In this document: positions 51,919 to 64,000 of the stretch, in pieces
Layout of the letters: each line of letters begins with the position of its first letter
Position numbering within the stretch: the stretch's first letter is position 1
Assembly: GCA_014584695.1 (NCBI GenBank)
Contig: JACTMI010000041.1
Location: 1 to 64,000 of the forward strand
DNA from: Acidobacteriota bacterium
GTDB lineage: Bacteria > Acidobacteriota > Thermoanaerobaculia > Multivoradales > JAGPDF01
Reading direction: 5' to 3'
DNA: 64,000 bases
Notes under the pieces: model-generated
Databases searched by the model: none
What the model was told of the DNA's origin: nothing
The model's input: only the letters and a program-made list of their open reading frames with translations
Made by a program: the position numbers and the translations under genes

Positions 51919-52836
51919 ATGAGCTCAGATTCCTCAGCCACCTCGACCGCCGCGGCCACGGAGGCGCGCTGGATCCGCCGGCCGCGCGCGATCTTGCGCT
52001 TCGTCCTGGCCGCCGCGGTCACCCTGCCCTGCTACCTGCTGGCGCTGGTGGCGGCGCTCCTGCTGTCGCCGTGGCCGCGGGCGCGGGTGCGGGTCCAGGG
52101 CCTGGCCTTCCGCCTCTGGAGCCGCGGTCTCTGTCGCGCCCTGGGGGTGCGGGTCCGGGTCGAGGGGCCGCCGCCACGCCCGCCTTTCGTGCTGGTGTCG
52201 AATCACTGCTCCTACCTCGACATCGTCGTCCTCGGCACCCAGCTGCCGTGCGTCTTCGTCGCCAAGGCCGAGATCGACGGCTGGCCGCTGTTCGGCGCCC
52301 TCTGCCGCGCGGTCAACACGATCTTCATCGACCGCAAGGCCAAGCGCCAGCTCCACCGGGTGCTCGAGCGGATCGAGACGACGCTCGCCGCGGGGCAGGG
52401 CGTGGTGCTCTTTCCGGAAGGGACCTCGGGTGCGGGCCACGCGGTGCTGCCTTTCCGCTCGCCGCTGCTCGAGCTGCCAGCCAAGCTCGGCCGGCCGGTG
52501 CACTGGGCGACGCTCGGATACCAGGCGCCTCCCGGCGGCCCGCCGACCCATCTAGCGGTCAGCTGGTGGGGGGAGATGCCGCTCGGCCCGCACCTGTGGC
52601 AGCTGCTGCAGCTGTCCTGGATCGACGCGCGCTTGAGGTTGGGGAGCGAGCCGGTCGCCGCGGCCGACCGGAAGCAGCTCGCCGAAGAGCTGCACGCCCG
52701 AGTTGCGGCCGGCTTCGAGCCGGTGGCGGAAGCGGCCGAGATCGAGCGGCTGGAGGAGCTGAAGCGAACGAACCCCGCCGCGCTCCCACGCGTGCTGCGC
52801 CGCGCCCGACCGGTCCCGCCAGCGGGGCCGAGCTGA
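51919..52836 (+). CDS. 1-acyl-sn-glycerol-3-phosphate acyltransferase family (PlsC/OlsA-like)
   Basis: 305 residues. Catalytic HX4D is H96-CSYL-D101, followed by the glycerol-phosphate site segment VFVAKAEIDGWPLFG, the FPEGTS motif and VHWATLGY. One N-terminal membrane helix (FVLAAAVTLPCYLLALVAALLL) anchors it. It acylates lysophosphatidate, or lyso-ornithine lipid if it is an OlsA; an OlsB-like gene lies 5 kb downstream. ATG 51919. The last 278 bases are overlapped on the other strand by the glycosyltransferase frame. Confidence 0.92.
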   Translation: MSSDSSATSTAAATEARWIRRPRAILRFVLAAAVTLPCYLLALVAALLLSPWPRARVRVQGLAFRLWSRGLCRALGVRVRVEGPPPRPPFVLVSNHCSYLDIVVLGTQLPCVFVAKAEIDGWPLFGALCRAVNTIFIDRKAKRQLHRVLERIETTLAAGQGVVLFPEGTSGAGHAVLPFRSPLLELPAKLGRPVHWATLGYQAPPGGPPTHLAVSWWGEMPLGPHLWQLLQLSWIDARLRLGSEPVAAADRKQLAEELHARVAAGFEPVAEAAEIERLEELKRTNPAALPRVLRRARPVPPAGPS

Positions 52837-54533: not shown

Positions 54534-56837
54534 TCAGTCGTCCGCGGGCGCCGACTCGGCCGCCAACCTGGCGGCGCGACGGACCAGCGCCTCGAGCTCG
54601 GCGATGCCGGCGTCGCCGCGCTGATCGAGCAGCAGCGCGCGCGCCGCCCGCTCGAGCTCCCGCCAGCTCCCCTCGCGGGCGTGGGCAGAGCCCTTGAGCC
54701 GCTCGGCGAGCTCGGCCGCCACCGCCGACAGGCGCAGGTCGCGCGTGGCGCGCTCGAACGAGCGGTTGAGGTCGGCGACGGACAGCTCCTGGCTCGCCTC
54801 GGCGATGCGGCCGTGGTCGGCGCTCTGCCAGCGCAGGCGCAGGGTGGCGACGCGATCCCGGCCGCGCGCGCCCTCGCGCAGCCGGACCTCGTAGAGCGCG
54901 GTGGCCGCGTGGCCGGCGCCGATTTCGCCGGCGTCGATCGCGTCGTTGCGGAAGTCGCGGTCGGCGACGTCGCGGTTCTCGTAGCCGAGCAGCCGCCAGC
55001 GCTCGACCACCTCCGGGTCGAACTCCACCTGCACCCTGGCGTCCTTGGCGACGGTCTGGAGCGTGCCGGTCAGGTTCTCGACGAAGACGCGGCGCGCTTC
55101 GTCGAGGGCGTCGACGTAGTGGTACGTGCCGTCGCCCTGGTTGGCCAGCTGCTCCATCAGGGCGTCGTTGTAGTTGCCCATGCCGAAGCCGACCGTGGTC
55201 AGCTCGATGCCGCGCCGCGCCTCGTCGCCGATCCGGCGCAGGATCGCCTCCGGACCGGTGGCGCCGACGTTGGCGACGCCGTCGGAGCAGAGGATCACGC
55301 GGTTGATCGCGCCCGAACGGAAGCCGCGGTCGGCCAGGTCGTAGCCGAGCCGCAGTCCCTCCTCGGCGTTGGTCGAGCCTTCGGGCGCCAGCCGCGCGAT
55401 CGCGTCTCGAACCGCCTCCAGGTCACTGGTGTGGGAGAGCAGCACGCGTCCCCGCGAGCCGTAGACCACCAGCCCGACGCGGTCGTCCGGGCGCAGCTCG
55501 TCGAGCAGCATGCCGAGCGCGCGCTTCACCAGATCGAGCCGGTTCTCGCGCGCCATCGAGCCCGAGACGTCGACGACGAAGGTGAGGACGGCGCTCTTGC
55601 GCTCGGTGGCATCGACCTCGCGCGCTTTGACCGCGAAGCGGAGCAGGCGGTAGCGCTCGCCCGGCGCGAAGGGCGAAGGCGCTCCCTCGGCGGTGAGGGA
55701 GAACTCGCCCCGCCGCGGCGCCGGATCTTCGTAGCGCTGGGCGTTGACGAACTCCTCGACCCGGATCGCCTCCGGCGGCGGCAACAGGCCACGGTCGAGG
55801 TAGGAGCGCGCGAGCGTGTACGAGCCGGTGTCGACGTCGAGCGCGAAGGTCGACAGCCGGTCTTCCGTGGAGTCGACGAAGGGGTTCGTTCCCACCGACC
55901 GGAAGTACATGGCGTCGGCGCGACGGCCCGAGGTCTCGTCGCCACGGCCGCGGCGGTCCGGCTCGAGCGAGCCGGCCGCGGGTGGAGCGGCTCGAGGCTC
56001 CGCAACGCTGGCGCCGGCGCGAGCTTCCTGGGGCGGCCGTGCGCGCTCGAGCGCCGAGCGCGCCTTGCCGGTGACAACTCGCTGCTCTACCGGCAGCAGC
56101 GGTTCGCCGGCGGAGCTCAGGCCTCCGCGGTCGACGGGCCGGGGCGCGGTCGCGGTGGCCGGCGCGGCCGGCGCCGACTGCTCTCGGCGCTTCGCGCCTT
56201 CGGCCGCGGTGGCAACCCGGGCGCTGTCTTCCATAGATGGGGTCGCGGCCTCGAGCCCCCTGGCGAGGTCTCGGCGCTCCTCGCCAGAGGAGCCGCGAGG
56301 AGGCGCAGCTTCCATGCCTCCGGTCTCGTGGACTCGCCGAGCTGCTCCATCGGAGCTTCCCTTCTCTGGAGCTTCTTGGCTTCCCGCCTCGGAAGCCACG
56401 AGCGCCCGGCTCGGATCCGGCTCCGAGCCGGCACGGTTCGGGATTTCCACTGGAGAGGCTTCTGGGGCTTCGGAGATCAGGCGGGACGGGACTTCCGGAG
56501 CGTCGGCGAGGACCTCGGTGGCCGGGGCGCTCGGGGTGATCTGCGGGCCGGGCGCTTCGGCGGGCGGCCGTGTCGCGAGCTGCCAGGCGAGCAGGCCGCC
56601 CAAGGAGGCGACGGCGAGTGAAGCGGCCAGCCTGAGCGGAAAGTGGCGGGATGGCGGCGCGGCAGGATCCGGCTCGAGCGCGTGGGGCTGCGCCGCGGGA
56701 GTTGCCGTCGCGCTGCCGAGCTCCTCGGGGATTCCCGCCCGGAGCTTCTCCAGCAGGTCGGCGGGCGGCGGTGGGGTGGGGAGCGCGCGGAGCTCCTCCT
56801 CGAGCTTGCGGCGGGTGGTTCGGTTGGGGCGGTTCAT
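54534..56837 (-). CDS. von Willebrand factor A (YfbK-type) protein coupled to ECF sigma factor
   Basis: 767 residues. A short cytosolic head, one membrane helix at ~68-90 (LRLAASLAVASLGGLLAWQLA), a ~200-residue Pro/Ala/Glu-rich periplasmic linker, a YfbK-type vWF region with FALDVDTGSYTLARSYL, a vWA domain with MIDAS DVSGS (near residue 420), GSTNAEEG and CSDGVAN, and a C-terminal DUF3520-like part. ATG 56837 overlaps the sigma-factor stop (TGATG), so the pair is co-translated and the head may act as the anti-sigma domain; this is inference. Confidence 0.9.
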   Translation of the reverse strand: MNRPNRTTRRKLEEELRALPTPPPPADLLEKLRAGIPEELGSATATPAAQPHALEPDPAAPPSRHFPLRLAASLAVASLGGLLAWQLATRPPAEAPGPQITPSAPATEVLADAPEVPSRLISEAPEASPVEIPNRAGSEPDPSRALVASEAGSQEAPEKGSSDGAARRVHETGGMEAAPPRGSSGEERRDLARGLEAATPSMEDSARVATAAEGAKRREQSAPAAPATATAPRPVDRGGLSSAGEPLLPVEQRVVTGKARSALERARPPQEARAGASVAEPRAAPPAAGSLEPDRRGRGDETSGRRADAMYFRSVGTNPFVDSTEDRLSTFALDVDTGSYTLARSYLDRGLLPPPEAIRVEEFVNAQRYEDPAPRRGEFSLTAEGAPSPFAPGERYRLLRFAVKAREVDATERKSAVLTFVVDVSGSMARENRLDLVKRALGMLLDELRPDDRVGLVVYGSRGRVLLSHTSDLEAVRDAIARLAPEGSTNAEEGLRLGYDLADRGFRSGAINRVILCSDGVANVGATGPEAILRRIGDEARRGIELTTVGFGMGNYNDALMEQLANQGDGTYHYVDALDEARRVFVENLTGTLQTVAKDARVQVEFDPEVVERWRLLGYENRDVADRDFRNDAIDAGEIGAGHAATALYEVRLREGARGRDRVATLRLRWQSADHGRIAEASQELSVADLNRSFERATRDLRLSAVAAELAERLKGSAHAREGSWRELERAARALLLDQRGDAGIAELEALVRRAARLAAESAPADD

Positions 56838-57415
56838 CACGAAGCCTCCTCGAGGGCGGTGGCGAGCAGGCGAAACGCCCGCGCCAGCCGCTTGCGCACG
56901 GCGACCGGAGTGATGCCCTCGGCGCGTGCGATCTCGACGACGGGAATCTCGGAGAAGTAATGGGCGGCGACGGCGCCGCGCAGCGGCTCGGGCAGGTCGG
57001 CGACGGCGCGCCGGAGCCGATTCGCCCGCTCGGCGGCGGCGGTTTCGGCTTCGGGGCCCGGCGCGGGGTCCGGGGGATCGAGCGCCGGCGTCTCCGGGTC
57101 GGCCGGAGCCGGGACCAGACGGAGCCCCGGCCGGCGCGATTTCAGGAAGGTCGTGAAGGCGATGCGGTGGAGCCAGGTCGAGAAGCGGGCCTCACCCCGG
57201 AACCCGGGCAGCGCGGCCCAGGCTTTGCGGTAGGTCTCCTGGGTCAGGTCGGCGGCGCGGTCGGCGTCTCCGGCGAGCCGGCAGAGCAGACCGTAGACCC
57301 GGCCGTAGGTCAGCTCCACCAGCCGCTCCGCCGCTGGGCGTTCGCCGGCTCGCGCGCGGGCGAGCAGGACCTCCTCCTCGTCGGGGCCGGCCGGCTCGGG
57401 GAGCTCCTCGCGCAT
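56837..57415 (-). CDS. ECF sigma factor coupled to vWA protein
   Basis: 192 residues from ATG 57415, which has GAGAGGAG six bases upstream; an upstream ATG (57445) is less likely. Region 2 shows LTQETYRKAWAALPGF and ARFSTWLHRIAFTTFLKSR; region 4 shows LPEPLRGAVAAHYFSEIPVV and TPVAVRKRLARAFRLL. It diverges from the OlsB-like gene; the 216-base gap holds a minus-strand TACAAT at 57519-57514 and a plus-strand TATGAT at 57589-57594. Confidence 0.92.
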   Translation of the reverse strand: MREELPEPAGPDEEEVLLARARAGERPAAERLVELTYGRVYGLLCRLAGDADRAADLTQETYRKAWAALPGFRGEARFSTWLHRIAFTTFLKSRRPGLRLVPAPADPETPALDPPDPAPGPEAETAAAERANRLRRAVADLPEPLRGAVAAHYFSEIPVVEIARAEGITPVAVRKRLARAFRLLATALEEAS

Positions 57416-57588
57416 CGCGACTCCTCTCGGGATCGGTGTCGTCATGCCCCCTTCGACCCCGCAGGCGCGCCGGAGGAAACCCCGGGCGCCGCGGCCGGTG
57501 GGCGCGGGGGCGGATTGTACGGCGGCTCGGGTGACCGGCTCGGCACGGTTTCGTCACCGGCAGGCCACTGGTCCCGCCAAACCTTGGC

Positions 57589-57631: not shown

Positions 57632-58471
57632 ATGAGCCTTCCCTCTTCGCCCCCTTTGCCCGACTTGCTGGAGCAGTGTCCCGAGCTGGCGGCCTATCCG
57701 CTGGCGGTGGACGCGATCCCGGAGCGCCAGCTCGCCGAGGGCTCGTACGCCGTCCGCTACGCGCGCACGCTCGAAGAGCTCGACGAGCTGCTGCGTTTGC
57801 GCTTCCGGGTCTTCAATCTGGAGCTCGACGAAGGGCTCGACGAGTCCTTCCTCACCGGGCGCGACCGCGACGAGTTCGACGCCCAGTGTCATCATCTCCT
57901 CGTCGAGCACCGCCCGAGCGGAGCGATCATCGGCACGTATCGGATTCAGACCGCGGCGATGGCCGCGCAGGGCCGAGGCTTCTACACCGCGACCGAGTTC
58001 GACCTCGGTCGTCTGCCCGACGAACTGGTGACCACGGCGGTCGAAGTCGGCCGCGCCTGCATCGCCCGGGAGCATCGGCTGAAGCCGGTGCTCTTCCTGC
58101 TCTGGAAGGGGCTCGCGCTCTACATGGAGCACAACCGGAAGCGCTGGCTGTTCGGCCCCTGTTCGCTCACCAGCCAGGATCCGTGGGACGGCAAGCGGGC
58201 GCTCGACGAGCTGGCCCGGCGGGGCAAGATCGACGCCGATCACGTCGTCACGCCGCAGCCGGGTTTCGAGTGTGTCTGGGAAGGGGCAGACCCGGCGCCG
58301 GAGCGGGCCGAGAACCTCGAGCTGCCGCCGCTGTTCGAGATCTACCTGCGCTATGCCGGCCGCGTCTGCGGCCTGCCGGTGATCGATCGCCGCTTCAAGA
58401 CCCTGGACTTCTTCGTCCTCTTCGACGTCGAAGCCCTGAGCCCCCGGGCGCGACGGCTCTTCTTCAGCTAG
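57632..58471 (+). CDS. GNAT-family N-acyltransferase, OlsB / exosortase-associated type
   Basis: 279 residues. The core RFRVFNLELDEGLD, DEFDAQCHHLLVEH, GTYRIQTA, GFYTATEFDLG and VEVGRACIAREHRLKPVLFLLWKG matches the ornithine-lipid/hemolysin (Acetyltransf_5-like) acyl-ACP-dependent GNAT family, which also resembles PEP-CTERM/exosortase-associated acyltransferases. ATG 57632 has GGAGG five bases upstream. Its neighbour is an IPTL-CTERM sorting-signal protein. Ornithine-lipid synthesis (with the PlsC/OlsA-like gene) or a sorting-related acylation are both possible. Confidence 0.83.
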   Translation: MSLPSSPPLPDLLEQCPELAAYPLAVDAIPERQLAEGSYAVRYARTLEELDELLRLRFRVFNLELDEGLDESFLTGRDRDEFDAQCHHLLVEHRPSGAIIGTYRIQTAAMAAQGRGFYTATEFDLGRLPDELVTTAVEVGRACIAREHRLKPVLFLLWKGLALYMEHNRKRWLFGPCSLTSQDPWDGKRALDELARRGKIDADHVVTPQPGFECVWEGADPAPERAENLELPPLFEIYLRYAGRVCGLPVIDRRFKTLDFFVLFDVEALSPRARRLFFS

Positions 58472-58560: not shown

Positions 58561-59136
58561 TCAGCCCGGGATCTGGGACGAGCGGCGGCGCAGGAGGAGC
58601 ATCGCCGCGAGCCCGAGGATCCCGACGAGGGCGACGAGACCCACGACGCCGAGCGTCGGGATCGCGATGGCGTTGTAGCCCGAGATGTCGGGTGCCGGGC
58701 CGGTGCAGATGTGGGTGTGGTCGTTGAAGTTTCCGTCGGAGGCGTACGTATCCGTGGCGTCGAAGCCGTGACCGTCCTCGAGATAGAACCCCACGCCCGT
58801 CGCGCCCTGGAGCACGGGCACCTGCTGGTGGTAGACGCCGATGTAAGGATGGGTCCCACCGTTGCCGGGCACCGGAATCGGGAAGCCCTCGTAGAAATTG
58901 CCGTCGTCCCACACATTCACCCAGGCGACGACCGTGCCGCCGACGTTGGCGGTGGTCACCGTACCGGTGATGACGACGTAGCAGCCGTTGACGGCCTGCA
59001 GGTTGATCGTCCCGGAGACGATGCCCCCACCGCCGCCGCCTTCGACCGGCAGGTCTGGGCGATTGGAAGCGCCGGCGAGGCCGGGCAGACTCAGCGCGGC
59101 CGCGAGCAGCAGCGCTCCCCACTTGCGATTCGACAT
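58561..59136 (-). CDS. IPTL-CTERM sorting-signal protein (second copy)
   Basis: 191 residues. Signal peptide (KWGALLLAAALSLPGLAGA), a glycine run, a beta-rich domain with two cysteines, and the tail IPTLGVVGLVALVGILGLAA followed by LLLRRR, an IPTL-CTERM signal. It is not clearly homologous to the first such protein outside the tail. ATG 59136 has AAGGAGAT six bases upstream. Upstream (59173-59206) is an AT-rich block, striking in this genome, that probably holds the promoter. It is close to the OlsB-like gene in convergent orientation. Confidence 0.85.
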   Translation of the reverse strand: MSNRKWGALLLAAALSLPGLAGASNRPDLPVEGGGGGGIVSGTINLQAVNGCYVVITGTVTTANVGGTVVAWVNVWDDGNFYEGFPIPVPGNGGTHPYIGVYHQQVPVLQGATGVGFYLEDGHGFDATDTYASDGNFNDHTHICTGPAPDISGYNAIAIPTLGVVGLVALVGILGLAAMLLLRRRSSQIPG

Positions 59137-59172
59137 TTCCGATCTCCTTCGGGGCCCGTCGGGAGCCCCATC

Positions 59173-59257: not shown

Positions 59258-59731
59258 CTACCTCGACTCGTCGTTGAAGTCGAGCTGCCGGTCGATCGAG
59301 ACCTCGAGCCGCACCGGGGTCTCCTGGCCGCCGGTGTGGACCTCGATGCGCAGGTCGCCGCCGGTGCGAGACTGGCCGATCCAGCGGATGCAGCCGGCTT
59401 CGCGCTCGGTGCCGGCCGCCGGCCGGTCGGTTCCCGGCTCGTAGATCGTCAGCCGCGCCTCGCCGCTCTGGGAGGCGACGCCGATCGTGAGCGCCACGCG
59501 CGATGGAGCGGCGAAGAGAAAGGTCGCGTCGCGGCCCGGGCCGACGGTGGCTGGCGCGGTCGCCTTCGAGTCCCCGGCCGGAACCTGAACCCGGATCGGC
59601 GCCGCGGCGCCGATCTCCGCCTCGGGCGAAGCGGTGGCGCGCGCCGCGAGCGGCGCCTCTCGTGCCGCCACCGCGGCGGTGGCGAGGAAGCAGGCCAGGA
59701 CGGCGGCAGGAATCGGTCGCACGGCGATCAC
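59258..59731 (-). CDS. Secreted protein of unknown function, last gene of DedA/ATP-grasp operon
   Basis: 157 residues. Signal peptide PIPAAVLACFLATAAVA, then a mature beta-rich domain with one cysteine (EREAGCIRWIG) and motifs such as LFAAPSRVALTIGVASQSGE and RIEVHTGGQETPVRLEVSID. I recognise no family; it has a pre-peptidase C-terminal-like flavour. GTG 59731 overlaps the preceding stop (GTGA), supporting this start; GTG 59722 has better ribosome-site spacing (GAGGAG). Function likely linked to its upstream membrane ATP-grasp partner. Confidence 0.7.
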   Translation of the reverse strand: MIAVRPIPAAVLACFLATAAVAAREAPLAARATASPEAEIGAAAPIRVQVPAGDSKATAPATVGPGRDATFLFAAPSRVALTIGVASQSGEARLTIYEPGTDRPAAGTEREAGCIRWIGQSRTGGDLRIEVHTGGQETPVRLEVSIDRQLDFNDESR

Positions 59732-61551
59732 TCTCCTCGGGACCCCGGGATGGTAGCAGAGCGGCGGCGGCGCTCCGCGAGCAGCGCGAGCAGGTGCCGC
59801 GCCGGCGTCACGCGGGCGCCGGCGCGGACGTTCTCGGCGCCGATCGCGAAGGCGAGGCGCCACTGTGCGAAGAGGGTCCGGTAGGCGCCGAGCAGGCTCG
59901 CGCCGGGCTGGTAGATGTGCGTCGCCTCGGAAGTGACGCCGTTGAGCTCGAGGACGCGCAGGCCGCTGCCGGCCCGCAGCGCCGCCAGCGAGGGAGCGCG
60001 CAGGTCGAAACGCCCGAAATAGAAGCCCTCGAACGAGCGCGCGATTTCGTCGATGCGCCGCTCGAGCTCGGGGGTCGTGTGCTCGCGGCCGTCCAGGAAG
60101 ACCGTGCCGCGGCAGTGGTTCCCGATCTCGACCAGCGGAATCTCGACTCCGGTCGCGGGAATCTCGTCGAGCCGGGCGGCATGCCGCTCGAGGTGGATCG
60201 GCGCCTGGGCGACGGCGCGCGGATCGGCGAGGATCAGCTCCTCGAGCGTGCGCCGGCCATCGCCGACGACGACGGGGAAGCGCTTGGCGGTGATCGAGAA
60301 GATCCGGCCCCGAGCGCCCCCGGGGTGGCGGACGTAGAAGACCCCGAACTCCTCGCCCGGGACGTACTCCTGCAGCAGGACGGTCGGCGGCGCGAAACGG
60401 AGCCAGTCGCGCAGCTCCACCTCACGGCTCAGGATCGCGACGCCGGCGCCGCGCTCACCGACGTCGGGCTTGCCGACCAGGGGATAGTCCAGACCGGCGC
60501 GCGCCATCGCTCGTCCGGCGGCGGCCACGCGCTGATCGAGGTCCTCGGGCAGCTCCAGCTGCTCGAACCGGGGCACCACCTCGGGCGGCAGGCGCGCGAG
60601 GATCTCGCTCTTCGACTCCAGCACGAAGCCGCCGGCAGGGATGCCCGGATTGGCGGCGGTGAAGCGGGTGAGGCCGCCGTGGCGCCAACCGAGCCAGAGG
60701 GCGTAACCGAGCACCGGCGCGTGGAACAGCCAGAGCGGCCAGAACTCCCAACGGGTGAGGCGATGCCAGCGACCCAGCAGCAGCCGGCGTCCGCGCCAGG
60801 TGAGCGCGGGCAGGAGGCCGTGAGCGATGACCAGGGCCACGACCACCGCGGCGGCGAGCGCCGGCAGCGCCCAGCGCTCGTAGCTGCGGAGGTAGGAGAG
60901 GACGGCGCCGTGCGTGGCGGCCGAGAGCCCGACCAGCAGGGGCGTCCAGAGCAGCGCGCCGAGCAGCAGCGCCCCGGCGAGCCCCCGCCACGGGGCGCGC
61001 AGGATGCCGGCGGCCAGGAAGAGCGGCAGCCGGCTGCCCGGCAGGAATCGCGAAGCGAAGACGACGCGCGGGCCGCGGCCGCGGAACCAGCGGGTCGCCC
61101 GCTCGACCGCCGCCGGCGTCACCCACCAACGAAGGGGGCGCCGGGTCAGCGCCGCCCGGCCGAGCCACCGGCCGGCCGCGACCAGCAGGAGGTCCCCGAG
61201 GAAGATCCCGACCAGGCAGGCCGTAGTGGCTGGCCAGAACGCGAGCAGGCCGCGCGAGACCATCAGGCCGGCGACGACCAAGGTGAGGTCCTCGGAGAGG
61301 AGCGTCGCCGCGCCGAGCGCCACCAGCACGGCCGCTTTCTCCGCGGCGGTGAACCGGTGGGGCGAATCGAACGCGGCGCCGGCCCGATCGAGCGGCTGGG
61401 CCAGCTCCTCGAGGGTCTGGAGCCAGGAGGATTCGCCCTCGCTCGCGGGGGCGGTGGTCGCCAGCGAGAGGGTGGAGAAGAGCGGCAGGAGGCTCGCGAG
61501 CGCGAGGACCAGCCGTGGGGTCCGGCGAGCGCGCCGCGTCGACCGCCTCAT
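59728..61551 (-). CDS. DedA-like (VTT) membrane domain fused to ATP-grasp domain
   Basis: 607 residues. A signal-like N-terminus, then a DedA/SNARE-associated domain at ~75-230 (LLSEDLTLVVAGLMVSRG, GRWLGRAAL, RGPRVVFASRFLPGSRLPL), two further helices to ~290, and a C-terminal ATP-grasp domain from ~340 (LVGKPDVGERGAGV, VLLQEYVPGEEFGVFYV, FYFGRFDLRAPSL and VLELNGVTSEATHIYQPG). ATP-grasp enzymes ligate carboxylates to amines. The domain fusion suggests ligation of a lipid-linked or transported substrate; inference. ATG 61551 overlaps the upstream stop (ATGA). Confidence 0.88.
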   Translation of the reverse strand: MRRSTRRARRTPRLVLALASLLPLFSTLSLATTAPASEGESSWLQTLEELAQPLDRAGAAFDSPHRFTAAEKAAVLVALGAATLLSEDLTLVVAGLMVSRGLLAFWPATTACLVGIFLGDLLLVAAGRWLGRAALTRRPLRWWVTPAAVERATRWFRGRGPRVVFASRFLPGSRLPLFLAAGILRAPWRGLAGALLLGALLWTPLLVGLSAATHGAVLSYLRSYERWALPALAAAVVVALVIAHGLLPALTWRGRRLLLGRWHRLTRWEFWPLWLFHAPVLGYALWLGWRHGGLTRFTAANPGIPAGGFVLESKSEILARLPPEVVPRFEQLELPEDLDQRVAAAGRAMARAGLDYPLVGKPDVGERGAGVAILSREVELRDWLRFAPPTVLLQEYVPGEEFGVFYVRHPGGARGRIFSITAKRFPVVVGDGRRTLEELILADPRAVAQAPIHLERHAARLDEIPATGVEIPLVEIGNHCRGTVFLDGREHTTPELERRIDEIARSFEGFYFGRFDLRAPSLAALRAGSGLRVLELNGVTSEATHIYQPGASLLGAYRTLFAQWRLAFAIGAENVRAGARVTPARHLLALLAERRRRSATIPGSRGE

Positions 61552-62306
61552 GGCCGCCCGGTGCCCTCCGACCCATCGAGCTCGAGGACCTGAGCCGCGC
61601 CGGGCGCGCACGGGCTCCCCGGGTGGTAGACGAGACGGCATTCGTCGGCCGCGAGCTCGAGCTCGACCATCGAGACGGTGGCGAAGCCGGAGCGGTGCAT
61701 GCAGACCGAGAAGGCGTGCGGCGTCGGGTCGTGGCTGCGGTGCAGCTGCCGGTGATCCTCGGGCCCCCAGGCCGGCCGCGCGGCGTGCCAGCTCCGCCAG
61801 GTCGCTTCGCGCGCCGCGGTGGCCGCCTCGTCGCCGAGCCCCGACGAGCAGACGATGCCGGTGGCGGCGGGGAGAGCCTCGAAACGGAGCTCGCGGCCGT
61901 CCCAGACCGCCAGGCTGGCGCTCTCCGGCTCCCGCCAGAGGGCGAGGAGCCGGAACGGGGCATAGGGGGTCAGATCGAGCTCCTGAGTTCGCTGCGTCAG
62001 CTCTCCGGGGCCCCTCGCCGGCGCGAGCAGCGGTGGGATCTGGCCACGGCTGGCGGGCGCCGGCGCGGTCGGCAGGGCGCCGCTCCGGTTGAGCAGGGCG
62101 ACGGTGAGGCCGAGCTCGGTGGCGAGAATCCAGGTGCCGCCGGCCCTGCCGTCCGTCGGGGCGATGTAGCGGATCCCTTCGCGCCAGAACCGTCGCGGCG
62201 GACCCGCGGGCTCGCGGGCGAGAGATTCGTCGCGGTTGAAGAAGAGATGGAGGCGGGCGGACGCGCCGGCCGCCGCGGCGGATCTCAGCCAGGTTGCGGT
62301 GCACAC
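61548..62306 (-). CDS. TANGO2/NRDE family protein
   Basis: 252 residues. The conserved start is V/M-C-T-A-T-W-L, with Cys 2 as the presumed N-terminal nucleophile, and N24-R-D-E27 with REPAGPPR nearby, followed by GGTWIL, LLNR and the SGLGDEAA segment. These are diagnostic of the TANGO2 domain (NRDE). Related eukaryotic proteins are implicated in heme or lipid handling; bacterial function is unknown. GTG 62306 begins exactly at the conserved motif, inside the end of the DinB gene (22-base overlap). Its stop overlaps the DedA/ATP-grasp start. Confidence 0.88.
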   Translation of the reverse strand: MCTATWLRSAAAAGASARLHLFFNRDESLAREPAGPPRRFWREGIRYIAPTDGRAGGTWILATELGLTVALLNRSGALPTAPAPASRGQIPPLLAPARGPGELTQRTQELDLTPYAPFRLLALWREPESASLAVWDGRELRFEALPAATGIVCSSGLGDEAATAAREATWRSWHAARPAWGPEDHRQLHRSHDPTPHAFSVCMHRSGFATVSMVELELAADECRLVYHPGSPCAPGAAQVLELDGSEGTGRP

Positions 62307-62833
62307 GAGGGCTGGCTCCGCCAGTGCTTGAGCGTCGAAGGCGCGACGCCGAAGTCGGGTCCGGCATCGACGCCGAGCTGGCCGAGCAGCAGACCGATCA
62401 ACGCGAAGTGGTGGACCGTGTGCGAGAGGAGGAACTGGAGCTCGCGCCGCAGGGTCGAGCGGCTCCACTGGTCGGTTTCCTCCCCCTGGCCGCTCTCCAG
62501 GCGGATCTCGGCTCCGGCCTCGAGGTCTTGGGAGGCGACCAGAGTGAGGCCGCCGATCAGCTCCCGGATCCGTTCCCGGGCCGCCTCGGGATCGCGCTCG
62601 AGCTCGGCCTCCCGCGCCCGGGAGTCGTAATCGATCCGACGGGCGGGCAGGCCGGAGAGAAAGCAGCTGTAGTGCTCGAGGATGTGGCGGAAGTGCGGCC
62701 CCACCGGCTTGCCCGCGGCGGTCGACCCGGGGCCGGAACCTGCATACAGGGCGGGAGAGAGCCTTCCCAGCACCTCCAGTCCCTGTTCCAGAACACGCAG
62801 ATTGGCCGACAGCACTTCAAGAGAAGCGGGCAT
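62285..62833 (-). CDS. DinB/YfiT-like four-helix metal protein
   Basis: 182 residues. Helical throughout, with His ligands expected in PHFRHILEHY (residues 47-54) and SHTVHHFALIG (H138, H142), matching the three-His site of DinB-like proteins. These often act as thiol-dependent transferases or hydrolases; substrate unknown. ATG 62833 has AAAGGA six bases upstream and is the first gene of a four-gene minus-strand operon. Confidence 0.82.
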   Translation of the reverse strand: MPASLEVLSANLRVLEQGLEVLGRLSPALYAGSGPGSTAAGKPVGPHFRHILEHYSCFLSGLPARRIDYDSRAREAELERDPEAARERIRELIGGLTLVASQDLEAGAEIRLESGQGEETDQWSRSTLRRELQFLLSHTVHHFALIGLLLGQLGVDAGPDFGVAPSTLKHWRSQPSCAPQPG

Positions 62834-62942: not shown

Positions 62943-64000
62943 ATGTCCGAGATGCGTGCGACGACGCTGCGGTTTCCCTGGAGAAGGAAAGGCGAGCTGG
63001 GCCGGCTCGTCGCCTCGGCGGCGGCGAGCGCGTTGCTGGCTGTCGGGCCGCTGGCGGCGGTCCCGACCGAGGCGGCGGAAGGCCCCTCGATCGCTGCTCC
63101 AGCCCCGGTGGTCCACGTCGTCCGCCTCGATTCGATCATCCATCCGGTGGCGAGCGAGTTCCTGGGGGAGTCGGTGGAGCGGGCCGACCGCGCCGGCGCG
63201 GCCGCGCTGGTGGTGGAGCTCAGCACGCCGGGCGGATTGCTGCAGTCGACGCGCGAGATGAGCGAGGCGATGCTGGCCGCGACGACGCCGGTGATCGTGT
63301 GGGTGGCCCCCGACGGCGCCCAAGCCGCTTCGGCCGGTTTCTTCCTGCTGATGTCCGGGGACTTCGCGGCCATGGCGCCGTCGACCAACACCGGCGCGGC
63401 GCACCCGGTGGGCGGCGCCGGCGAGACCATCGAAGGGGTGATGGGCCAGAAAGTCGAGCAGGACGCCGCGGCGACCATCCGCGCGCTGGCGCAGCGGCGC
63501 GGCCGCAACGTCGAGAAGGCCGAGGCGGCGGTGCGGGAGAGCCTCTCGTTCACCGCCGACGAGGCGCTGGCGGCCGGGTTGATCGATGCCGTGGCGCCGG
63601 ACCTCCCGCGCCTGCTCGCGGCGCTCGACGGCAAGCCGTTCGAGAAGCCGGCCGGCGCCGAGCGGACGCTGGCGGTGGCCGGCGCGACGATCGAGCGCTT
63701 CGAGATGACCGGCTTCCGCAAGCTGCTCTCGACCCTGATCCACCCCAACATCGCCTACCTGCTGATGACGCTCGGATTCCTGGGCCTCTATTTCGAGCTG
63801 TCGCATCCGGGTACGATCTTCCCGGGAGTCGCCGGCGCGATCTGCCTCCTGCTGGGCCTGTACGCGCTCTCGGTGCTGCCGGTCGACTACGCGGGCATCG
63901 GGCTGATCCTGCTCGCCCTGGCGCTGTTCGTGGCGGAGATCAAGGTGACCAGCTACGGGCTGCTGACGCTCGGTGGAGTGATCGCGATGGTGCTGGGCTC
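62943..64000 (+). CDS. NfeD-family membrane-bound serine protease (ClpP class), truncated by window end
   Basis: The first ~352 residues are seen. A signal sequence (LGRLVASAAASALLAVGPLA) precedes a ClpP-like protease domain with nucleophile S130 (GAQAASAGFF) and general-base K170 (MGQKVEQDAA), 40 residues apart as in archaeal 1510-N proteases. C-terminal membrane helices begin near residue 265 (LIHPNIAYLLMTLGFLGLYF) and continue to the window edge; the soluble OB-type NfeD domain would lie beyond. ATG 62943 or 62952 is the start; a TATCCT box (62936-62941) precedes it. Such proteins process stomatin-like partners. Confidence 0.9.
   Translation, partial: MSEMRATTLRFPWRRKGELGRLVASAAASALLAVGPLAAVPTEAAEGPSIAAPAPVVHVVRLDSIIHPVASEFLGESVERADRAGAAALVVELSTPGGLLQSTREMSEAMLAATTPVIVWVAPDGAQAASAGFFLLMSGDFAAMAPSTNTGAAHPVGGAGETIEGVMGQKVEQDAAATIRALAQRRGRNVEKAEAAVRESLSFTADEALAAGLIDAVAPDLPRLLAALDGKPFEKPAGAERTLAVAGATIERFEMTGFRKLLSTLIHPNIAYLLMTLGFLGLYFELSHPGTIFPGVAGAICLLLGLYALSVLPVDYAGIGLILLALALFVAEIKVTSYGLLTLGGVIAMVLG

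Follow-up and report, generated by a model that had tools for sequence, protein, structure and literature searches.

Why is a DedA/VTT membrane domain fused to an ATP-grasp ligase and encoded, in overlapping genes, together with a TANGO2-family protein, a DinB-like protein and a small secreted protein? This question is raised by a cluster at positions 59258-62833 of the window analyzed here, i.e. the whole stretch of 64,000 nucleotides from contig JACTMI010000041.1 of an Acidobacteriota bacterium (GenBank assembly GCA_014584695.1). An initial annotation had proposed that the cluster is a dedicated pathway acting on a lipid-linked or exported substrate, and whereas the lipid context and the wide co-occurrence described below agree with that proposal, the secreted partner that it included falls outside the conserved set. 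Our analysis suggests that the module very probably belongs to an aminolipid pathway, and the explanation that best fits the data, to which we give an even chance, is that an N-acyl-amino-acid lipid of the OlsBA type is amidated by the ligase on its free carboxylate and that the VTT domain then carries the product across the membrane.

The VTT/ATP-grasp Fusion Resembles Amide-forming Ligases

The fusion protein comprises a signal-anchor (residues ~14-32), a VTT/DedA domain (~75-250), a membrane-proximal WEFWP...NPGI..GG segment (~264-314) and an ATP-grasp ligase domain (~314-580). The protein from the window reached no Pfam ATP-grasp model, and the ATP-grasp assignment of its C-terminal half is upheld by the predicted fold. 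Thus, the AlphaFold2 model has a predicted local distance difference test score (pLDDT) of 86, mostly above 90 in the C-terminal half, and residues ~271-579 matched cyanophycin synthetase (7wae; Z 16.5 over 270 residues, root mean square deviation (rmsd) 4.9), with further matches to bifunctional glutathione synthetase (Z 15.3) and LysX/ArgX (Z 14.2) and a Foldseek match to the ATP-grasp fold at 6.5e-9. The structure search was run with the whole fusion and its list was filled by ATP-grasp matches, so that it speaks to this half only. In agreement with the structural matches, a profile of 32 relatives aligned with the CphA2 structure 7ta5 (5e-11) as far as the Mg-binding E-x-N motif. The predicted ATP and Mg ligands are K361 (in 32 of 32 sequences) and D516, E535 and N537 (in each of the 30 rows extending that far), and E401 and K423 are also conserved.

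Cyanophycin synthetases, GshF and LysX/ArgX, the closest folds, share the GDG..T..ELI loop with the window protein and form an amide bond on an amino-acid carboxylate, and ATP-dependent amide formation is therefore the activity that the model suggests for the fusion. The domain differs from these enzymes in that the region before the ATP-grasp core is short, membrane-anchored and often placed behind a VTT domain, identity being ~20 percent, and the NCBIfam equivalog of cyanophycin synthetase scored 24.6 bits against a cut-off of 850. A hydrophobic W-E-x-W-P...NPGI..GG..ESK-like segment is kept in the aligned copies before the core, stand-alone ones included, and occupies the place of the N-terminal substrate domain of other ATP-grasp enzymes. 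Such a conserved segment suits a membrane-bound substrate, and it may form a membrane-facing substrate site.

The VTT domain was recognized by Pfam (54.7 bits, cut-off 33.9), and the arginines of its R-F-x-P-G-x-R motif, which is common to the DedA/VTT family (UptA and others), are conserved in the rows that have the domain (R168 in 24/24, R174 in 23/24). Unlike known members of this family, the domain is fused here to an ATP-grasp ligase and sometimes also to an α/β-hydrolase. In a crude hydropathy test, seven basic residues precede the N-terminal segment and none follow it, and five are found after the last VTT helix. This charge bias would place the N terminus and the ATP-grasp domain in the cytosol and, where present, the fused α/β-hydrolase in the periplasm, which is the likely topology of the protein.

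The best NCBIfam match of the VTT domain was the undecaprenyl phosphate transporter UptA, and YceI, a lipid-binding family, is encoded in some loci. Both observations would suit a module whose substrate is a different lipid-linked carrier (for example an undecaprenyl-linked or glycerolipid intermediate), the OlsBA genes being mere neighbors in a membrane-lipid island. We consider this rather improbable, since the UptA match (44.1 bits) lies far under the equivalog cut-off of 250, undecaprenyl phosphate has no carboxylate for activation by an ATP-grasp enzyme, and the OlsB neighborhood recurs in several phyla.

The Ligase Gene Is Linked to OlsB-like and OlsA-like Acyltransferase Genes

The coordinates of the initial annotation delimit the coupled genes correctly but leave out the most telling partners, an OlsB-like N-acyltransferase and an OlsA-like O-acyltransferase encoded nearby (Table 1). 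The two proteins scored 113 bits (cut-off 320) and 150 bits (cut-off 300), respectively, with the NCBIfam equivalogs, and they are therefore named OlsB-like and OlsA-like. A search of the window's own genome with the OlsB profile hit this same OlsB-like gene. The order OlsB-OlsA-DinB-TANGO2-fusion was found on one strand in Planctomycetota, OlsB-OlsA-(DinB)-fusion in Balneolaceae, and OlsB-OlsA-fusion in Gemmatimonadota. A gene for a ferric-reductase-like transmembrane and Rieske fusion was also observed near OlsB in Gemmatimonadota and Acidobacteriaceae (L013 3083-4432, and also L014-L026, L019 and L022).

The linkage was then quantified in two phyla, where the ATP-grasp gene was found in 28 of 198 genomes of Acidobacteriota (where a match had to cover the ATP-grasp part) and in 23 of 197 genomes of Planctomycetota (profile matches with E up to 1e-30). 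OlsB was present in 24/28 of the Acidobacteriota genomes with ATP-grasp and 13/170 of the others (Fisher p 1e-17), and in Planctomycetota in 13/23 and 2/174, respectively (Fisher p 1e-12). Of the 37 sampled genomes with both genes, 33 have OlsB at most 5 kb from ATP-grasp. TANGO2, at clade-level scores, showed the same behavior, with 9/28 versus 1/170 genomes in Acidobacteriota (6e-8) and 15/23 versus 6/174 in Planctomycetota (2e-12), and all 28 genomes with the DinB subfamily (17 Acidobacteriota and 11 Planctomycetota) carried the ATP-grasp gene. In five Acidobacteriota genomes (G022, G032, G068, G113 and G137) TANGO2 and ATP-grasp are on different contigs, and in Saprospira grandis DinB, TANGO2 and ATP-grasp are all present and dispersed on the chromosome, which indicates that the link exceeds inherited synteny. 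A chance neighborhood is ruled out by the co-occurrence in two phyla together with the gene fusions described below.

The ATP-grasp enzyme might instead make the first amide bond, between a fatty acid and an amino acid, a reaction carried out in Singulisphaera by the GH3-like OlsH, while the OlsB-like and OlsA-like enzymes supply other lipids of the class. An unrelated enzyme that N-acylates ornithine at the expense of ATP has been described (PMC12493201), some genomes with ATP-grasp gave no OlsB hit, and in the Chitinophagales loci none lies nearby. This alternative appears unlikely, because in most carriers the ligase would be redundant with the adjoining OlsB-like enzyme, and peptide extension from an amino-acid carboxylate is what the enzymes structurally closest to it catalyze.

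Several points weigh against amidation of an aminolipid carboxylate. Neither the OlsB-like nor the OlsA-like protein reaches its equivalog cut-off, so that the headgroup amino acid is not fixed by them, and the substrate of the ligase is deduced from gene context and fold. OlsB was not hit in 10/23 Planctomycetota and 4/28 Acidobacteriota genomes with ATP-grasp. The co-occurrence tests treat the genomes as if phylogeny played no part, and clustered copies supplied some of the sequences in the query profiles. No OlsB or OlsA gene was found nearby in the Chitinophagales loci read, OlsB/OlsF elsewhere in those genomes not having been searched, and the aminolipid link in this order rests on analogy. 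DinB and TANGO2 are often absent, and are therefore not essential to ligation, and the absence of VTT in some lineages means that flipping by this domain is not obligatory.

The ATP-grasp Domain Is the Constant Element of a Widespread Module

A locus scan with one genome per species yielded 39 loci, most of them from metagenome-assembled genomes. Neighbor families were taken from profile searches (clustering of open reading frames (ORFs) in GC-rich genomes merges shadow ORFs), and two Streptomyces loci (L038 and L039), which matched over short stretches only, were excluded from the relatives. The DinB/TANGO2/VTT-ATP-grasp module extends across at least seven phyla (Acidobacteriota, Planctomycetota, Balneolota, Gemmatimonadota, Verrucomicrobiota, Bacteroidota and Pseudomonadota), the record names of the relatives being Acidobacteriota, Planctomycetota, Balneolaceae, Gemmatimonadota, Verrucomicrobiota, Bacteroidota, Cellvibrionales, KSB1 and one Acidimicrobiia. 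The initial annotation would have been weakened by conservation confined to a single genus; DinB, TANGO2 and ATP-grasp co-occur far more widely than that, and this objection does not apply.

The most common architecture is VTT::ATP-grasp, and many copies also carry an N-terminal α/β-hydrolase (α/β-hydrolase::VTT::ATP-grasp). In L022 the VTT domain is encoded by a separate ORF. In Chitinophagales, where 181 of 396 genomes matched the profile at 1e-15 (a few weakly) and the great majority of matches cover the ATP-grasp part, often in two copies, the domain stands alone or is fused behind TANGO2, as in the single TANGO2::ATP-grasp ORFs of two genomes (L078 7089-8879, minus strand, and L079 5972-7759, plus strand). 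The fusion highlighted at the outset is thus present in the window, but its VTT part is variable elsewhere, being fused, separate, absent or accompanied by an α/β-hydrolase. In a tree of 56 ATP-grasp domains the architecture changed repeatedly, at least three changes per label being forced by well supported branches. Taken together, these data indicate that ATP-grasp is the constant element of the module and that DinB and TANGO2 are frequent partners.

Chitinophagales loci usually have DinB upstream and a LysE-type translocator downstream of ATP-grasp, and their partners are YHS, DoxX, YceI and the LysE-type protein. In six of them (L072, L074, L076, L077, L081 and L082) two ATP-grasp paralogues flank YHS, DoxX, DinB and TANGO2 genes, and such paired ligases could fit the stepwise synthesis of a tripeptide lipid.

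The TANGO2 and DinB-like Proteins Are Probable Enzymes

The TANGO2 protein scored 33.8 bits with the Pfam family (cut-off 22.6), and its profile matched human TANGO2 structures at 1e-7. C2 and the NRDE motif (N24, R25, D26 and E27) are invariant in 15/15 sequences, and the protein is probably a cysteine amidase of the N-terminal nucleophile (Ntn) type. In agreement with this, the structure of human TANGO2 led to the proposal of a cysteine Ntn-hydrolase with fatty-acid derivatives as substrates (PMC13044924). The window protein shares Cys2, the NRDE motif and the Pfam domain with human TANGO2 and with the bacterial HtpA, and differs from them in belonging to a clade linked to a ligase with aminolipid context and, in places, fused to that ligase.

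HtpA of Shewanella was reported to act in haem trafficking (PMC10470608), which raises the alternative that the cluster functions in haem or redox metabolism, with TANGO2 as a haem chaperone and with ferric-reductase, DoxX and YHS neighbors. Rieske/ferric-reductase genes do lie upstream in Gemmatimonadota and Acidobacteriaceae, and DoxX and YHS recur; nevertheless, no TANGO2 gene is seen in those Gemmatimonadota loci that have the Rieske gene, no haem role is known for the ATP-grasp, VTT or OlsB genes, and the haem contact of human TANGO2 was found to be nonspecific (PMC13044924). A haem-related function is thus very improbable.

The recurrence of two hydrolase families (Ntn and α/β-hydrolase) with the ligase, and the LysE-type translocator that follows it in Chitinophagales, could also point to a degradative or salvage pathway in which TANGO2 and the hydrolase would degrade N-acyl amino acids or signals, leaving the ATP-grasp enzyme to recycle the amino acid. 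Synthesis is favored instead by the OlsB-like and OlsA-like synthase genes that stand in line with that of the ligase. Moreover, in the triple fusion of a Balneolaceae locus (L004 7164-9614) the nucleophile elbow of the hydrolase reads GEAVGG instead of GxSxGG, and because the serine is lost this domain is probably inactive, whereas the ligase is retained. A salvage pathway is therefore quite improbable.

The DinB-like protein fell below the gathering scores of Pfam DinB (19.6 bits, cut-off 23) and DinB_2 (19.7 bits, cut-off 24.8), hence its name. This weak assignment is upheld by the predicted DinB four-helix fold, whose model (pLDDT 91) matched DinB/YfiT structures with Z up to 15.9, the top match being 6iz2 (139 residues, rmsd 2.5). 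His50, His138, His141 and His142 are invariant in 17/17 sequences and H47 is kept in 16/17, which suggests that the protein is probably a metal enzyme. The genes upstream of DinB in L036 and L008 showed no Pfam family.

A Proposed Route to Amide-capped Aminolipids

From the gene linkage, the fusions, the predicted folds, the conserved catalytic residues and the likely topology we infer the substrate, the direction of the reaction, the flipping step and the roles of TANGO2 and DinB as follows. The locus would encode the headgroup end of an aminolipid pathway, in which an N-(3-acyloxyacyl) amino acid, the joint product of the OlsB-like and OlsA-like enzymes, has its free carboxylate in the inner leaflet. 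From its place in the cytosol, the membrane-anchored ATP-grasp domain would phosphorylate this carboxylate with ATP and couple it with an amine such as taurine, an amino acid or a similar group, yielding a peptide-type or amide-capped aminolipid that the fused VTT domain would carry across the membrane. Where fused, the N-terminal α/β-hydrolase would process the flipped lipid in the periplasm. TANGO2, as a Cys2 Ntn-type enzyme, may serve in turnover or editing by hydrolyzing the N-acyl amide or transferring it, and the DinB-fold protein may act as a metal enzyme on the headgroup; these two roles are the least certain part of the scheme.

Lipids of the expected kind exist. Glycine-serine and ornithine-taurine lipids, with more than one amide-linked unit, have been described (PMC12493201), as has a glycine-serine-ornithine lipid from Chitinophaga (PMC8433624), a member of the Chitinophagales, in which 181 of 396 genomes matched the profile. 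These lipids, which include lipid 654 and flavolipin of the glycine-serine type, carry an extra amide on the carboxylate of an N-acyl amino acid, as proposed here; no gene for that bond was found in the literature searched. Likewise, no enzyme adding taurine or a second amino acid to an aminolipid was found in that literature, and the parts of an aminolipid review that cover N- and O-acylation and tailoring name no such ligase (PMC11631085). The OlsBA ornithine-lipid pathway and its tailoring enzymes resemble the present system in the OlsB-like GNAT and OlsA-like PlsC proteins of the cluster, but no ATP-grasp, VTT, TANGO2 or DinB protein has been described there in the literature searched. In the same literature no paper joins ornithine lipid with DedA, and the single paper joining it with ATP-grasp has the latter term only in its reference list. 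The initial statement that no system with such a gene set is described holds for this literature, and the ATP-grasp family may have been mentioned earlier.

Taken together, the known multi-amide lipids, the human TANGO2 structure, and the fold and gene context of the ligase favor ATP-driven amidation of an aminolipid carboxylate, a specific reaction for which the odds appear to us evenly balanced. The broader view, in which a widespread and undescribed system for peptide- or amide-capped aminolipids couples cytosolic ligation and lipid transfer in one protein (with a periplasmic hydrolase in the triple fusions) and TANGO2 is an N-acyl amidase, is more tentative and, on balance, doubtful. If true, it would give a TANGO2 clade a biochemical role and fill in the genes that are missing for lipids of the glycine-serine or taurine type. 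Human TANGO2 is a disease protein, and the bacterial clade is tied to one ligase family by co-occurrence and fusion; since this ligase has an aminolipid context, the questions of the TANGO2 substrate and of the extra-amide enzyme become testable in bacteria.

Operon Structure and Neighboring Genes

The coordinates, minus strand and overlaps initially given for the four coupled genes were all confirmed (Table 1). The DinB-like and TANGO2 genes overlap by 22 bases, TANGO2 and the fusion by 4 (ATGA), and the fusion and the secreted-protein gene by 4 (GTGA).

Table 1. Coupled genes and nearby acyltransferase genes of the window
Feature	Coordinates	Strand	Evidence
DinB/YfiT-fold protein, 182 aa	62285..62833	-	Sub-threshold Pfam, conserved His, AlphaFold2 model, PDB matches
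TANGO2-family protein, 252 aa, GTG start	61548..62306	-	Pfam TANGO2, Cys2 + NRDE, profile match to human TANGO2
VTT/ATP-grasp fusion, 607 aa	59728..61551	-	Pfam VTT, AlphaFold2 model, structure and profile matches, hydropathy
Small secreted protein, 157 aa, signal peptide	59258..59731	-	No family above Pfam cut-off, none in NCBIfam
OlsB-like N-acyltransferase (GNAT, Acetyltransf_5), convergent with the operon	57635..58471	+	Pfam 2e-27; NCBIfam OlsB 1.5e-32
OlsA-like (PlsC) lyso-aminolipid O-acyltransferase, 6.9 kb from the fusion gene	52003..52836	+	Pfam Acyltransferase 2e-22; NCBIfam OlsA 7e-44

The nearest relative (L001) likewise has a 22-base overlap between the DinB and TANGO2 genes, and in six further loci, including Planctomycetota, Verrucomicrobiota and Acidobacteria records, the overlap is exactly 13 bases; it is 1 base in L011, and short gaps are found in L008 and L019. 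The recurrence of this overlap indicates that the arrangement exceeds chance. The window's genome has a single copy of the VTT/ATP-grasp gene. A promoter and terminator scan gave nothing clearly above shuffled sequences, and tRNA and Rfam searches of the window gave no match.

The small secreted protein had been regarded as a partner of the fusion. Its gene is GTGA-coupled to that of the fusion, yet among the 39 loci a homologue was found only in L001, and its role as a core partner was rejected.

A second small secreted protein is encoded between the OlsB-like gene and the operon (58564-59139, minus strand) and ends in an IPTL-CTERM-like sorting signal that scored 16.9 bits with TIGR04174 (cut-off 20.5). 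The NfeD-type membrane protein gene at 62943-64000 (plus strand) is divergent from the operon, as in L001. Two minus-strand ORFs with a 4-base overlap (54534-56840 and 56837-57445) appear, judging from their translations, to encode a von Willebrand type A (YfbK-like) protein and an ECF-sigma-like protein.

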